This document shows positions 14,508 to 20,336 of a DNA stretch of 20,336 nucleotides, one piece after another; position 1 is the stretch's first letter; each line of letters opens with the position of its first letter. A program made the position numbers and the translations under genes. Under the pieces are notes generated by a model. The model had not been told where the DNA came from, made no database searches, and worked only from the letters and a program-made list of their open reading frames with translations. The stretch is from a virus: IMG/VR virus record IMGVR_UViG_3300020465_001055, positions 1 to 20,336 of that record. The stretch is one strand, 5' to 3'.

Positions 14508-16040
14508 ATGCCTAATGCTTCTATATCCCTTGCACGTAGACGTAGTGCTCAGTTGGCAGCACAATCGATCAAGGCGAAACCAGAAGCTGTTGTTACTCCA
14601 CCTCATGTTCTAAAGGCGAGGAATAATTTTGCTTATTTCTGCGAGTTGATGGGCAAAAAACCCGCAAAGCACATGCGGGAGTGGCATAAACAGATACTAA
14701 CTGCAGAAAGTAACGAGCATTTGCTCGATATCGCGGGTCCCAACACTTGTCTACTAAGTCCACGAGGTAGTGCCAAGTCTACTGTTATAGGACTATTAAT
14801 AGCATGGCTGATCGGTAGGCATGCGGAAGCAGGCAAACTTTTAAGAACTCTCTATGTTTCTTATAACGTGGACGTTGCAAGGAATAAAAGTGCAGCAATT
14901 AAAAATTTAATATCTAATAAAGAGTATCAAGAGGTCTTTCCTAAAGTTCGATTATCTAAGCATCGAACAAGTGATGAGCTATGGTCGATTGATTTTGAAC
15001 ATGCAGGGGTAGACATTAGAGGAGAAGATGCTTTTACTGTTGCTTGTGCAGGATTAAAAGGAACAATTACTTCCAAGCGAAGTTCTTTGATTATTGTTGA
15101 TGACGCAATTAAAAGTGCTGCTGCCATTGCTAATCCAGATATAAGAAGAGAGATGGAATCGAACTGGACTAACGTTATTGTTCCCACCATGTTCCAAGGT
15201 GCAAGAGCTATTGCACTAGGAACTCGTTTCCATTTTGATGATTTATTTACAACGATTTTCTGTGAAAAAAGAGGATGGAAAGTTATAACTCAACAAGCAT
15301 TGCATTATGACGACAATGGAACCCCGAAGTCTTATTGGGGATCTATGTGGTCGGTGGGTTATTTATTGAAGCTTCAAACAGAAGATCGCATTGCTTTTTC
15401 TTATCAGTATTTAAACCAACCAATTAAAACAACAGAACTTGGTTTATCTCCAGAGTTGTTTATTAAAGGAGAGGTTCCTGACACTTATGACACGATTGGT
15501 GTCGGTATTGACCTCTCTGCAGGGATGAGTGAACGTAATGATTGGACTGTATTTGTTTTAGCTGGAAGAGTAGAAGATAAGGTATACATCATCGATTACA
15601 AAAGAATGAGGTCGATGGGAAATATTGAAAAAGTTGAAGCTTTAGCAGAGCTATTAGTGGAATGGAACTTACTAAGTATGAATGATGAAGGGCAGTTTTT
15701 TAAGACAGAATCTCCTGTTGTGATATGGCCTGAAGTTGTTGCTTATCAAAAAAGTTTTGAAGGTGACTTGAAACGTGTTCTATTCAATGAATGGCAGTTG
15801 TATAATTTAACTGTGAGTCCTGTCAAAGGTTTTAGAGGCGATAAGCTAGCTCGCTTAAGAGGCATTGTTGGTTTGTTTCAAAGTAAAAAAATTATTTTCA
15901 ATAAATATCGTGATTTTTCTTACATGATTGATGAAGTGGTTAATTTCGGTCATGCCTCTCATGATGATTGTGCTGATGCTTTGAATATTGTGGTGCAAGG
16001 TCTCATGAAACGAGGCGGTGCGCAGATCCAATGGCAGTAA
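14508..16040 (+). CDS. terL: Terminase large subunit (packaging ATPase-nuclease)
   Basis: This 510-residue motor pumps DNA into the procapsid and cuts it. ATPase domain: Walker A SPRGSAKST (84-92, Lys90), Walker B LIIVDD (194-199), and the coupling motif ALGTRFHFDD (236-245). RNase H-like nuclease domain: GIDLS (333-337, Asp335), acidic WPEV (407-410, Glu409) and HDDCADA (485-491, Asp486/487/490). These are metal-binding acid residues of this fold. Length and domain order are normal and the gene is intact. The start ATG at 14508 lacks a good SD but fits; no earlier in-frame start is evident. The portal gene begins 10 nt downstream, the usual neighbour. Confidence 0.95.
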   Translation: MPNASISLARRRSAQLAAQSIKAKPEAVVTPPHVLKARNNFAYFCELMGKKPAKHMREWHKQILTAESNEHLLDIAGPNTCLLSPRGSAKSTVIGLLIAWLIGRHAEAGKLLRTLYVSYNVDVARNKSAAIKNLISNKEYQEVFPKVRLSKHRTSDELWSIDFEHAGVDIRGEDAFTVACAGLKGTITSKRSSLIIVDDAIKSAAAIANPDIRREMESNWTNVIVPTMFQGARAIALGTRFHFDDLFTTIFCEKRGWKVITQQALHYDDNGTPKSYWGSMWSVGYLLKLQTEDRIAFSYQYLNQPIKTTELGLSPELFIKGEVPDTYDTIGVGIDLSAGMSERNDWTVFVLAGRVEDKVYIIDYKRMRSMGNIEKVEALAELLVEWNLLSMNDEGQFFKTESPVVIWPEVVAYQKSFEGDLKRVLFNEWQLYNLTVSPVKGFRGDKLARLRGIVGLFQSKKIIFNKYRDFSYMIDEVVNFGHASHDDCADALNIVVQGLMKRGGAQIQWQ

Positions 16041-16049
16041 GATTAAGAA

Positions 16050-18284
16050 ATGAGTAACCCATCTAACGAGAGATACCGTCAGATCCTAGAAGCTGCTAGG
16101 AAGCGTGATGGAAGCAGTGGCACTGACACGATGGTTGTCAATAGTCACTTAGCTCAGATGAAGCTTTTCATGCTGAGGCAAGGAATTGAGTTTTTCCCTG
16201 CACAAGACACATTTGGTTTTAGAAAAATATTTATTCAACAATTAGTTGAAGAGAATGAAATTGATAGCAGGTTAGAAGGAATTGTTGATGATTTTTTACT
16301 AGATGGTAAAGGGTTATTTTATTTCAGACCTGTAAAAGATACTTACCGCATTATGTGGTTTAGTAAAGAAAACTACAGGGCTTATTACGATGCTCAGTCT
16401 CAATTAGAAGAAATTGAACTGATTTATTCCTTCTCTGTACGTAGTGGTACAGGTGCTTTAGCTATATCTACAGCAGACAACGGCAGTACTAGGTATGTCA
16501 AACTGCAAGTCAGACGAGATACGATCAAAGAATCGATAACGTCTGAGAGACCTTCTTTCGAAGTTGGACAAACCAATAGCTTTACTTGGTCCCCCAACCA
16601 AACGAGGACTTTGGTTAACAGTCTTGGCTTTATTCCAGCTGTTGAATCTTTCAATACGATGCGTTCTACAGGAATGGACGCAACAGGTGATTTTGATTGG
16701 TTATCTGAGCAGATTGTATTACATGACGATTTAGTTAAAAATATCCGCACAAATATTACGTTCTTTGGTAATCCAACTTTAGTTTCTAGTAGACCTAAGC
16801 ATGATTTGGTTGAGTCAGGCTCTGAAGAAGGTTTACGACCAACAATTAGTTCTCAAGCAGGTTTCTATTCAGCAAGCAGACCATCTACTCGTGTGAGTGA
16901 GCCTGGGCCAAGCGGTGGTGGTGCCTTAAAAGTTCCTCGGATTATTGCCAACGTTGAACCGACTGACCGGGCTGTTTACTTAACTCCTGATGCAGTTTCT
17001 GGTGATCAAAACTTATACGCACGTCAATATCGAGAGGAATTAAGAACCGCAATGGGCGGGGTAGATGAATTAGGAATTAGTTCTGGAGCAACAGCTTACG
17101 AGATCAAATCTTTATACGGTCGAGCAGCTACAACGGCTACACGTCGATGCAAAGGATTATTGACATATGGATTATGTAAATTATTTGGTTTAATTATTTT
17201 CCACGAAGAAAAAATCTTCCGTGATTCCTTTGCCTTGGCGATAGGCCTAAAAAGGCCTGCACCACCTATTGAAGAGAACTTCCAGCCAGGAGAAGACTAT
17301 GATATGGCGGTAGGAGCTTTCCAAGAACAAGAGAAAGCATACGACGAACAACTAGAATTAGCCATCCGAGAAGCAGTCCAGTCCACTGAACTTCCTCCCG
17401 GTGTGGTCGGTTTAATACCCGACGGCAACAGGAAGATTGAGTGGAGATGGAAGGGTCCAGTCTTCGAAGATGGAACAGAGGATATACTGAATTCAAGTAT
17501 TGTGGTTCGTAACCTACAAGAACTCGGTGTTAACAGCATCGAAGCGTTGCGTTACCTCTTCCCTGACAAGACAGATGAAGAGAGAAGTGCAATGCTTAGT
17601 GGCTATCCATTTAGAATGGCTCAAGCCACCCAAAGCAGTATTGGACAATTCTTGGCGCTGATAAATGACATGCGTCAAACCCCTCATCCTCAGGCTCCAG
17701 ATCTACCGCTTTTGGCAGATCCTAAACTTGACTTAACACCCTACGTCTATAGGGCATTCGAATTTTTAAAGAGAGAACTAACTTATGCAGGACAGTATTC
17801 AGACACAACAGGCTCCGGCGACCCAGCAGAACTCGATACCATCGAGCGCGCCCGTTCCGAGCGCGGCTTACCAGCAAGCTCCGGCCCAGACCGCCCAAGT
17901 TTCGTACCAGACACCTTCGGAACCATCGGTTCAGGTTCAGGCACCCCAGGTTCAGGCACCCCAGCCACAGGCTCCGGTCCAGGAGGCCAATCCATGGCAG
18001 GAGGCGTTCAAGAGCCTCAGCGACAGTTTGAGCGCAACGCAGACCTCCCAGCCCCAGGCAGCCTACTCAACTCCGACCCCACAACAGCCGCAGACAAGCA
18101 GCTTTCCCTCTCAGGTTCAGCAATACCAAGCGGCTCCGTCCGTTTCGGGGATGCAGACTTATCAGCCCCAAGCAACGCCGGCGTACTCCCCGACCCAGCA
18201 GGTACAGGCGCAGCCCTCGACACAGCAAGGAGCAACACAAAGCGGAGACGGGTATCTAGACAACGTCAGCAACGAAAGTCTTGA
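16050..18284 (+). CDS. Portal protein
   Basis: Portal proteins form the dodecameric ring through which the terminase feeds DNA. The assignment rests on position directly after the large terminase and on overall look: a mixed alpha/beta body with segments such as VDDFLLDGKGLFYFRPVKD and GGVDELGISSGATAYEIKSL, which fit the portal clip and crown regions. At 744 residues it is long. Residues from about 579 onward are a low-complexity Gly/Ser/Pro/Thr/Arg tail, ending in a basic segment (TKRRRVSRQRQQRKS). The whole tail is encoded in DNA that also encodes the start of the next gene in another frame. This tail is probably disordered and not essential to the portal fold. Confidence 0.75.
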   Translation: MSNPSNERYRQILEAARKRDGSSGTDTMVVNSHLAQMKLFMLRQGIEFFPAQDTFGFRKIFIQQLVEENEIDSRLEGIVDDFLLDGKGLFYFRPVKDTYRIMWFSKENYRAYYDAQSQLEEIELIYSFSVRSGTGALAISTADNGSTRYVKLQVRRDTIKESITSERPSFEVGQTNSFTWSPNQTRTLVNSLGFIPAVESFNTMRSTGMDATGDFDWLSEQIVLHDDLVKNIRTNITFFGNPTLVSSRPKHDLVESGSEEGLRPTISSQAGFYSASRPSTRVSEPGPSGGGALKVPRIIANVEPTDRAVYLTPDAVSGDQNLYARQYREELRTAMGGVDELGISSGATAYEIKSLYGRAATTATRRCKGLLTYGLCKLFGLIIFHEEKIFRDSFALAIGLKRPAPPIEENFQPGEDYDMAVGAFQEQEKAYDEQLELAIREAVQSTELPPGVVGLIPDGNRKIEWRWKGPVFEDGTEDILNSSIVVRNLQELGVNSIEALRYLFPDKTDEERSAMLSGYPFRMAQATQSSIGQFLALINDMRQTPHPQAPDLPLLADPKLDLTPYVYRAFEFLKRELTYAGQYSDTTGSGDPAELDTIERARSERGLPASSGPDRPSFVPDTFGTIGSGSGTPGSGTPATGSGPGGQSMAGGVQEPQRQFERNADLPAPGSLLNSDPTTAADKQLSLSGSAIPSGSVRFGDADLSAPSNAGVLPDPAGTGAALDTARSNTKRRRVSRQRQQRKS
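17785..18284 (+). other. 500-nt two-frame coding overlap (portal tail / scaffold N-terminus)
   Basis: Both genes remain open across 500 nt in different frames. Local G+C is about 60% (74 of 120 bases at 17821-17940), against 30% at 16261-16320. The products are biased differently: Gly/Ser/Pro/Arg in the portal frame and Gln/Pro/Ala/Val in the scaffold frame. Confidence 0.8.
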
Positions 18285-18864
18285 AGTTCTTCAGCACTTC
18301 GGAGCAGAAGCACCAGCACTTTTAAATAGATATGCATGCACCGTTGAGGATGCACTTCTTCAGCAGGCAAATCAAACTCAGGAAGCGTTCCAAAGAATTA
18401 ATGGCTTAGCCAAGAATATCGAAGGAGCTAAGAAAGTTGTAGATGCTGCTGCGGCAGACAACGCTGCATACCATACAATGCTGACTAACCCTGACCTACT
18501 CTCTGAGTACGTTAATGAGTTCTTCGGTCCTAGTGGTCCTCATCCTGTAGAGATAGCTCAGGATCGCCTAGCAGCAGAAGTTGCAGCAAATGAAGCAAAG
18601 ATGGGAATAACTCAGGCTCCTGCTCCTCAGGCTCCTGCTCCTCAAGCTCCTGCTCCTCAAGCTCCAGTTGGACAAACTCCAACTCAGCAATTCCAGCGTC
18701 CTCAGATAGATATGCCTAATCCAGGCGTACAGGCTCCTCAAAATGGAGACTTTTGGGCAGAGTTCTCTAACTTAAGTGACAAGAACCCAGCAGCTGCATG
18801 GCAGGCTTTGAGTTCAGCTACTCCAGAACAACTACGTAGTAAGCTTCTCGTTTCAGAAGGCTAA
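17785..18864 (+). CDS. Scaffold-like capsid assembly protein with Q/P-rich N-terminus
   Basis: This 359-residue protein starts at ATG 17785 (purine-rich AAGAGAGAA upstream), in the +1 frame relative to the portal, so its first 167 residues overlap portal codons. Residues 1-165 are Gln/Pro/Ala/Ser-rich and disordered. A helical domain follows (about 170-270), then APAPQ repeats (278-292) and a helical C-terminal tail (FWAEFSNLSDKNPAAAWQALSSATPEQLRSKL). Disordered, helical, Gln-rich proteins between portal and capsid genes are typical scaffolds, which guide procapsid assembly. This is inferred from position and composition. A strong terminator ends the unit 15 nt after the stop. Confidence 0.75.
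   Translation: MQDSIQTQQAPATQQNSIPSSAPVPSAAYQQAPAQTAQVSYQTPSEPSVQVQAPQVQAPQPQAPVQEANPWQEAFKSLSDSLSATQTSQPQAAYSTPTPQQPQTSSFPSQVQQYQAAPSVSGMQTYQPQATPAYSPTQQVQAQPSTQQGATQSGDGYLDNVSNESLEVLQHFGAEAPALLNRYACTVEDALLQQANQTQEAFQRINGLAKNIEGAKKVVDAAAADNAAYHTMLTNPDLLSEYVNEFFGPSGPHPVEIAQDRLAAEVAANEAKMGITQAPAPQAPAPQAPAPQAPVGQTPTQQFQRPQIDMPNPGVQAPQNGDFWAEFSNLSDKNPAAAWQALSSATPEQLRSKLLVSEG
18616..18666 (+). repeat. 15-bp tandem repeat encoding APAPQ
   Basis: Three copies of GCTCCTGCTCCTCAG/A plus a partial copy encode APAPQ repeats in the scaffold-like protein. It is a flexible linker between the helical domain and the C-terminal tail. Confidence 0.85.
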
Positions 18865-20049: not shown

Positions 20050-20336
20050 ATGACTTCTTCTTCTTTAACAAGAAGCGGCAGCTTATTGCAAGGTTGGGAC
20101 GAGTTCTGTGAGTGGACAACATCTACTAACAATCGTATTTACGTTGGTTGGTTCGGAGTCTTAATGGTTCCTTGTCTACTCGCTGCAGCAACTTGTTTCA
20201 TTATTGCTTTCATAGCTGCCCCTCCTGTCGATATTGACGGGATTCGCGAACCAGTAGCAGGTTCATTCTTATATGGAAACAACATCATCTCAGGAGCCGT
20301 TGTACCGTCATCTAACGCAATCGGTCTTCACTTCTA
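20050..20336 (+). CDS. psbA: Photosystem II D1 protein, 5' part (cut by window end)
   Basis: Ninety-five codons are present. The product begins [22 protein letters not shown] and continues with hallmark D1 blocks: [17 protein letters not shown], first membrane helix ([18 protein letters not shown]), [34 protein letters not shown]1 is the fast-turning-over reaction-centre subunit of photosystem II, in the thylakoid membrane. Phage copies keep photosynthesis running as host D1 is lost during infection. The form ([21 protein letters not shown]) matches picocyanobacterial and cyanophage versions. The rest of the gene lies right of the window. Confidence 0.97.

Follow-up and report, generated by a model that had tools for sequence, protein, structure and literature searches.

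Scaffold proteins produced from within another head gene are known from phages lambda (C/Nu3) and P2 (O), in which the scaffold is made in the same frame as the protease. Long out-of-frame overlaps also occur in tailed phages, as in the small lysis pair Rz/Rz1. In tailed phages with large genomes, those of ~80 kb included, gene overlaps usually span a few nucleotides (nt), and there is little need for coding compression. Here, we analyzed a metagenomic virus record from IMG/VR (IMGVR_UViG_3300020465_001055, positions 1 to 20,336) in which a putative portal gene and a putative scaffold gene share 500 nt in different frames. This whole 20,336-nt stretch is referred to as the window, and coordinates are given in it; the genome type to which it belongs is ~80 kb. 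As in lambda and P2, the scaffold starts within a head gene; unlike in those phages, that gene is the one for the portal, and it is read in another frame than the scaffold. As in Rz/Rz1, two frames of one stretch of a double-stranded DNA (dsDNA) phage appear to be used, but Rz and Rz1 are not capsid-assembly proteins.

In P22, the portal crown ends near residue 600, the C-terminal extension beyond it (residues 601 to 725) is unstructured in the procapsid, and the N-terminal loop of the scaffold is unresolved (PMC12005531). The putative portal and scaffold described here would resemble P22 portal gp1 and scaffold gp8 in the portal extension past the crown and in a scaffold N terminus without resolved structure; unlike in P22, the portal tail is rich in Gly, Ser, Pro, and Thr and has a basic end. 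Overlaps in DNA viruses have a median length of ~16 nt, and those in the +1 relation have a median of 14 nt with an interquartile range of 8 to 26 nt (PMC8903798), against which an overlap of 500 nt is indeed extreme, as had been claimed from the window alone. Asymmetric constraint on the two frames, also found here, is described for overprinted viral genes in a review in which the phage examples found concern phiX174, with a small genome as opposed to the ~80 kb here (PMC8227390). No account of the present overlap turned up in the literature searched. Overprinting as such is well known; its occurrence over 500 nt, out of frame, in two head-assembly genes and throughout a clade is an unusual variant. 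That two presumably essential assembly genes are kept in this arrangement across a deep clade of common cyanophages provides a naturally occurring case in which overprinting in dsDNA phages can be studied.

Conservation of the overlap and selection on both frames

Our analysis suggests that this locus is a dual-coded overlap of two capsid-assembly genes in S-EIV1-like cyanophages and that both of the mostly disordered products are used, a reading to which we assign a probability of about 80%. The features on which it is based, all on the plus strand, are as follows.

16050..18284, +, portal protein gene, an open reading frame (ORF) of 744 amino acids (aa) with translation, directly after the terminase large subunit gene; residues 1 to 578 (portal core) lie outside the overlap and residues 579 to 744 (portal tail) within it
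17785..18864, +, scaffold protein gene, an ORF of 359 aa with translation; residues 1 to 166 lie within the overlap
17785..18284, +, dual-coded overlap of 500 nt, kept in 120/121 phages, with purifying selection in both frames
17772..17784, +, likely ribosome-binding stretch of the scaffold start, inside the portal gene (upstream consensus; weak 'GAGA' in the window)
17989..18033, +, best-conserved segment of the overlap, encoding the NPWQEAF..L..SL helix of the scaffold (residues 69 to 83) and GGV..P..ER of the portal
18207..18284, +, basic portal C terminus (..KRRRVSRQRQQRKS*), net charge of +8 in the last 25 aa

The initial annotation had reported a 500-nt out-of-frame overlap with both frames open, a local G+C content of about 60%, and strongly biased, probably disordered products, and each of these descriptions was borne out. 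Both ORFs are open across exactly 500 nt (17785-18284), and the scaffold frame is the portal frame +1. The portal stop codon (TGA, 18282-18284) coincides with the start of the long helix predicted for the scaffold. The composition of both products is biased, and both are predicted to be mostly disordered. The G+C content rises from 42% in the portal core to 61% in the overlap and falls to 48% after it. This jump is attributable to avoidance of T at the third position of scaffold codons, which is the first position of portal codons: in the nearest relative, the frequency of T at these positions is 0.47 downstream of the overlap and falls to 0.15 within it.

Conservation was assessed in 121 distinct phages in which both genes are complete; "marine" and "freshwater" are used as labels for the window-like and S-EIV1-like sequence clades, respectively. 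The same frame relation, with an overlap of 467 to 638 nt, was found in 120 of the 121, and no portal frame in the set stops near residue 580. In the sole exception (L140), 56 nt are deleted within the overlap (L140 5740-5800), a change that disrupts the frames and is either an artefact or a real mutation. In the cultured cyanophage S-EIV1, the portal is 47% identical to that of the window and the overlap is 554 nt. Although the window is itself a metagenomic record, the overlap is seen in some 120 distinct contigs originating from many samples and also in one cultured isolate, which refutes an assembly or sequencing error as the source of the open portal tail and leaves that explanation with virtually no credence. 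Indels within the overlap preserve both frames. The third frame is closed in all 120 phages, with a mean of 5.5 stops. When the scaffold protein was kept and synonymous codons were drawn from the same phage, 2 to 10 portal-frame stops were expected and none was seen (P ≤ 0.002 in 12 of 13 test phages; P = 0.12 in the GC-rich L063).

Substitutions were classed as nonsynonymous (N) or synonymous (S), with the first letter referring to the portal and the second to the scaffold, and two-frame rates were estimated from 19 independent close pairs (<6% divergent) at a kappa of 2. The portal NN/SN ratio was 0.30 (0.17 to 0.52) and the scaffold NN/NS ratio was 0.17 (0.10 to 0.26); at a kappa of 4, the values were 0.36 and 0.20. 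In simulated evolution with one frame neutral, the ratio for the neutral frame was ∼1, and stops soon accumulated in a neutral portal frame. In the part of the overlap shared by the clades, portal NN/SN was below 1 with confidence limits that exclude 1 in both the marine and the freshwater phages. For protein identity, only between-clade comparisons were used, because within-clade z-scores are inflated by shared ancestry: portal-tail identity was 0.216, where the scaffold protein by itself would impose 0.144; in the reverse comparison, scaffold identity in the overlap was 0.269, where the portal protein by itself would impose 0.172. Seven portal residues in the overlap (P592, G652, E661, P667, G670, G700, and D703) are invariant in both clades, and at 17989..18033 the invariant columns are N69, P70, W71, A74, and L82 of the scaffold alongside G652 and E661 of the portal.

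These results show purifying selection at the protein level in each of the two frames, in support of the dual coding first proposed. It is nevertheless conceivable that only the scaffold frame matters and that the portal tail is a tolerated read-through without a function of its own, kept open because stops are harmful or by codon bias. Overall, constraint is stronger on the scaffold frame; the portal frame is under the weaker constraint at every divergence and shows none on its amino acids in an extension found only in freshwater phages (see below), and the portal stop position shifts. A neutral portal frame would not be expected to show the low NN/SN ratios of the shared part, the between-clade identity above that imposed by the scaffold protein, or the seven invariant residues, and we regard this alternative as improbable.

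The initial annotation had also proposed measuring synonymous constraint in each frame. Synonymous change was lowered in both frames in every sixth of the overlap, to 22 to 54% of the downstream level for the scaffold and to 4 to 33% of the core level for the portal. Suppression of this kind in both frames could also come from RNA structure or another nucleotide-level signal rather than from two proteins. The substitutions are sorted by their protein effect, with NN below both SN and NS, the suppression spans the whole 500 nt, and both frames are kept through indels; an RNA signal as the cause of the conservation is thus scarcely credible.

Probable identity of the two genes

Modeling, fold comparison, and gene order indicate that the gene at 16050-18284 most likely encodes the portal and that at 17785-18864 the scaffold, as the initial annotation had supposed. 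The product of the first matches PHROG 20475 ("head and packaging") at an E value of 8e-182. Its AlphaFold model is of low confidence (mean pLDDT of 45); with that model, phage portals or portal/tail complexes make up nearly all of the best 19 fold matches in the PDB (best E value, 2.7e-4), among them the T7-like, E1004, and cyanophage A-1(L) portals. A BFVD fold search with the same model returned nothing at E ≤ 0.001. The gene directly follows that for the terminase large subunit and, in relatives, is followed by the scaffold gene and then the gene for the major capsid protein (MCP).

For the second gene, no family match was found, and Pfam returned only weak chance matches for either protein. 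Its product is predicted to have the architecture expected of a scaffold, in which an elongated, helical protein combines disordered regions with a C terminus of short helices. In the AF2 prediction, which is of moderate confidence, residues 1 to 156 are disordered except for a helix at 70 to 83, a long helix spans 163 to 247, and C-terminal helices span 323 to 356. S-EIV1 (row L081, an annotated record) was left out of the alignments behind the structure models. In relatives, the gene lies between those for the portal and the MCP: 48 freshwater relatives have an MCP-like ORF 120 to 1,986 nt after the scaffold, and in marine genomes the MCP is several kilobases downstream. The freshwater MCP-like ORF is related to a capsid-like ORF of S-EIV1, which weakly matches annotated coat proteins.

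The GenBank record of S-EIV1 annotates only the last 133 scaffold codons. Standard annotation of this type isolate therefore hid most of the scaffold gene and apparently the capsid gene as well: the probable major capsid ORF (L081 8323-9474, 383 aa) is not fully annotated, and at this place the record instead has an ORF on the minus strand and a short fragment.

Probable internal initiation of the scaffold and likely direction of the proposed overprinting

The scaffold start codon is nearly fixed, being ATG in 118 and GTG in 3 of the 121 phages. In all 54 freshwater phages, AAGGAG lies 7 nt upstream of it, even though these phages use AAG and GAG for only a minority of Lys and Glu residues; in marine phages, the corresponding motif is a weaker GAG. 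The scaffold is probably initiated independently inside the portal gene, since the near-fixed start and the AAGGAG kept despite minority codons make internal initiation the simplest mechanism. The initial annotation had raised a programmed +1 frameshift that would fuse the portal to the scaffold. The frames are in the right relation for this, and the heptamer CCCCCCA occurs 54 times among the 120 overlaps. No conserved slippery heptamer is common to the whole group of 120 phages, however, and the commonest one is present in under half of them. The scaffold has its own conserved ATG with, in freshwater phages, a perfect Shine-Dalgarno sequence, and the marine end context TCT TGA does not appear to be a known +1 site. 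The suggested fusion is thus unsupported and very unlikely.

With independent initiation, one mRNA region would be translated in two frames. Portal ribosomes would continue for ∼165 extra codons, adding a flexible tail that is basic at its end, and ribosomes starting at the internal ATG (17785) would produce the scaffold; both proteins would be made. By analogy with P22, the portal tail would be directed into the procapsid, where it may touch the acidic scaffold. The basic end of the tail carries a charge of +5 to +8 over 25 residues; the scaffold as a whole is acidic (net charge of −16 to −24 in five phages). Whether the two are binding partners, with the basic tail docking on the acidic scaffold and nucleating one portal per procapsid, is a speculation by analogy that we consider doubtful; were it true, ligand and receptor would be encoded by the same bases and forced to coevolve.

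Several observations weigh against the overall interpretation. Pairs at higher divergence gave weaker ratios (portal, up to 0.82), as saturation predicts but as weak constraint would predict too. The gene assignments are based on gene order, PHROG, architecture, and a fold model of low confidence, and profile searches of solved structures with the portal and the scaffold gave zero sequence matches. As to the direction of the overprinting, 87 of 120 phages have slightly more typical codon usage in the portal than in the scaffold frame of the overlap, a weak signal, and no outgroup without the overlap was found, further viral scans giving the same clade again. Among annotated phages, S-EIV1 alone has a homologous portal, even at an E value of 5, and a genome-contig search for distant outgroups returned only five phage-like contigs (L227-L231). 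These contigs are binned into Euryarchaeota and Acidimicrobiales metagenome-assembled genomes in GTDB, presumably by contamination.

The portal frame was likely, but is not proven to have been, extended over a preexisting scaffold 5' end, in line with the origin by overprinting that had been claimed. After such an extension, selection would have acted on both readings of the shared stretch. Among marine phages, 63 of 66 have the portal stop at the same scaffold position; in freshwater phages, the portal frame is up to 37 alignment columns longer and covers the conserved scaffold helix. In this freshwater-only extension, portal NN/SN is 1.4 (0.96 to 2.13), indicating no amino-acid constraint, and the scaffold is constrained; here, the portal frame seems to have grown over existing scaffold sequence. 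In the part common to the clades, the portal tail is taken to be the newer because scaffold constraint is stronger, the scaffold start is fixed (the portal stop position is variable), and the product compositions differ: the scaffold N terminus is rich in Gln, Pro, Ala, and Ser, like the non-overlapping part of the same protein, and the portal tail is unlike the portal core.

The opposite origin would make the long portal tail ancestral and have the scaffold start move upstream into it, a scenario that contests the direction and not the dual coding. It fits the codon usage, and the P22 portal also has a C-terminal extension beyond the crown, at residues 601 to 725 (PMC12005531). The compositions, the more constrained scaffold frame with its fixed start, and the spread of the portal frame over conserved scaffold sequence in one clade speak against it, and we judge it unlikely, if the most plausible of the alternatives.

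Neighboring features and relatives

Other features of the window lie outside the two genes.

14508..16040, +, terminase large subunit (TerL), PHROG 38 (E value, 1e-67), Pfam PF17289
10439-12688, 749-aa protein with a HINT/intein-like domain (PF07591) and a C-terminal DUF4214
20050-20336, psbA, beginning 1.2 kb past the scaffold and running off the window end

In many marine relatives, psbA likewise lies 0.7 to 2.2 kb past the scaffold; one 85-kb genome has its capsid gene on the far side of psbA. The terminase large subunit of S-EIV1 (L081 1544-4084, corresponding to S-EIV1 54080-56620) contains an intein (Pfam PF14890; E value, 1.4e-11; residues 202 to 526) that is lacking in the 510-aa terminase of the window. 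In the marine relative IMGVR_UViG_3300008261_000018, a group I intron (L298 2261-2663; Rfam RF00028, 60 bits) interrupts the major capsid gene. In IMGVR_UViG_3300017766_004544, the halves of the major capsid gene are ~1.2 kb apart, with no Rfam match.
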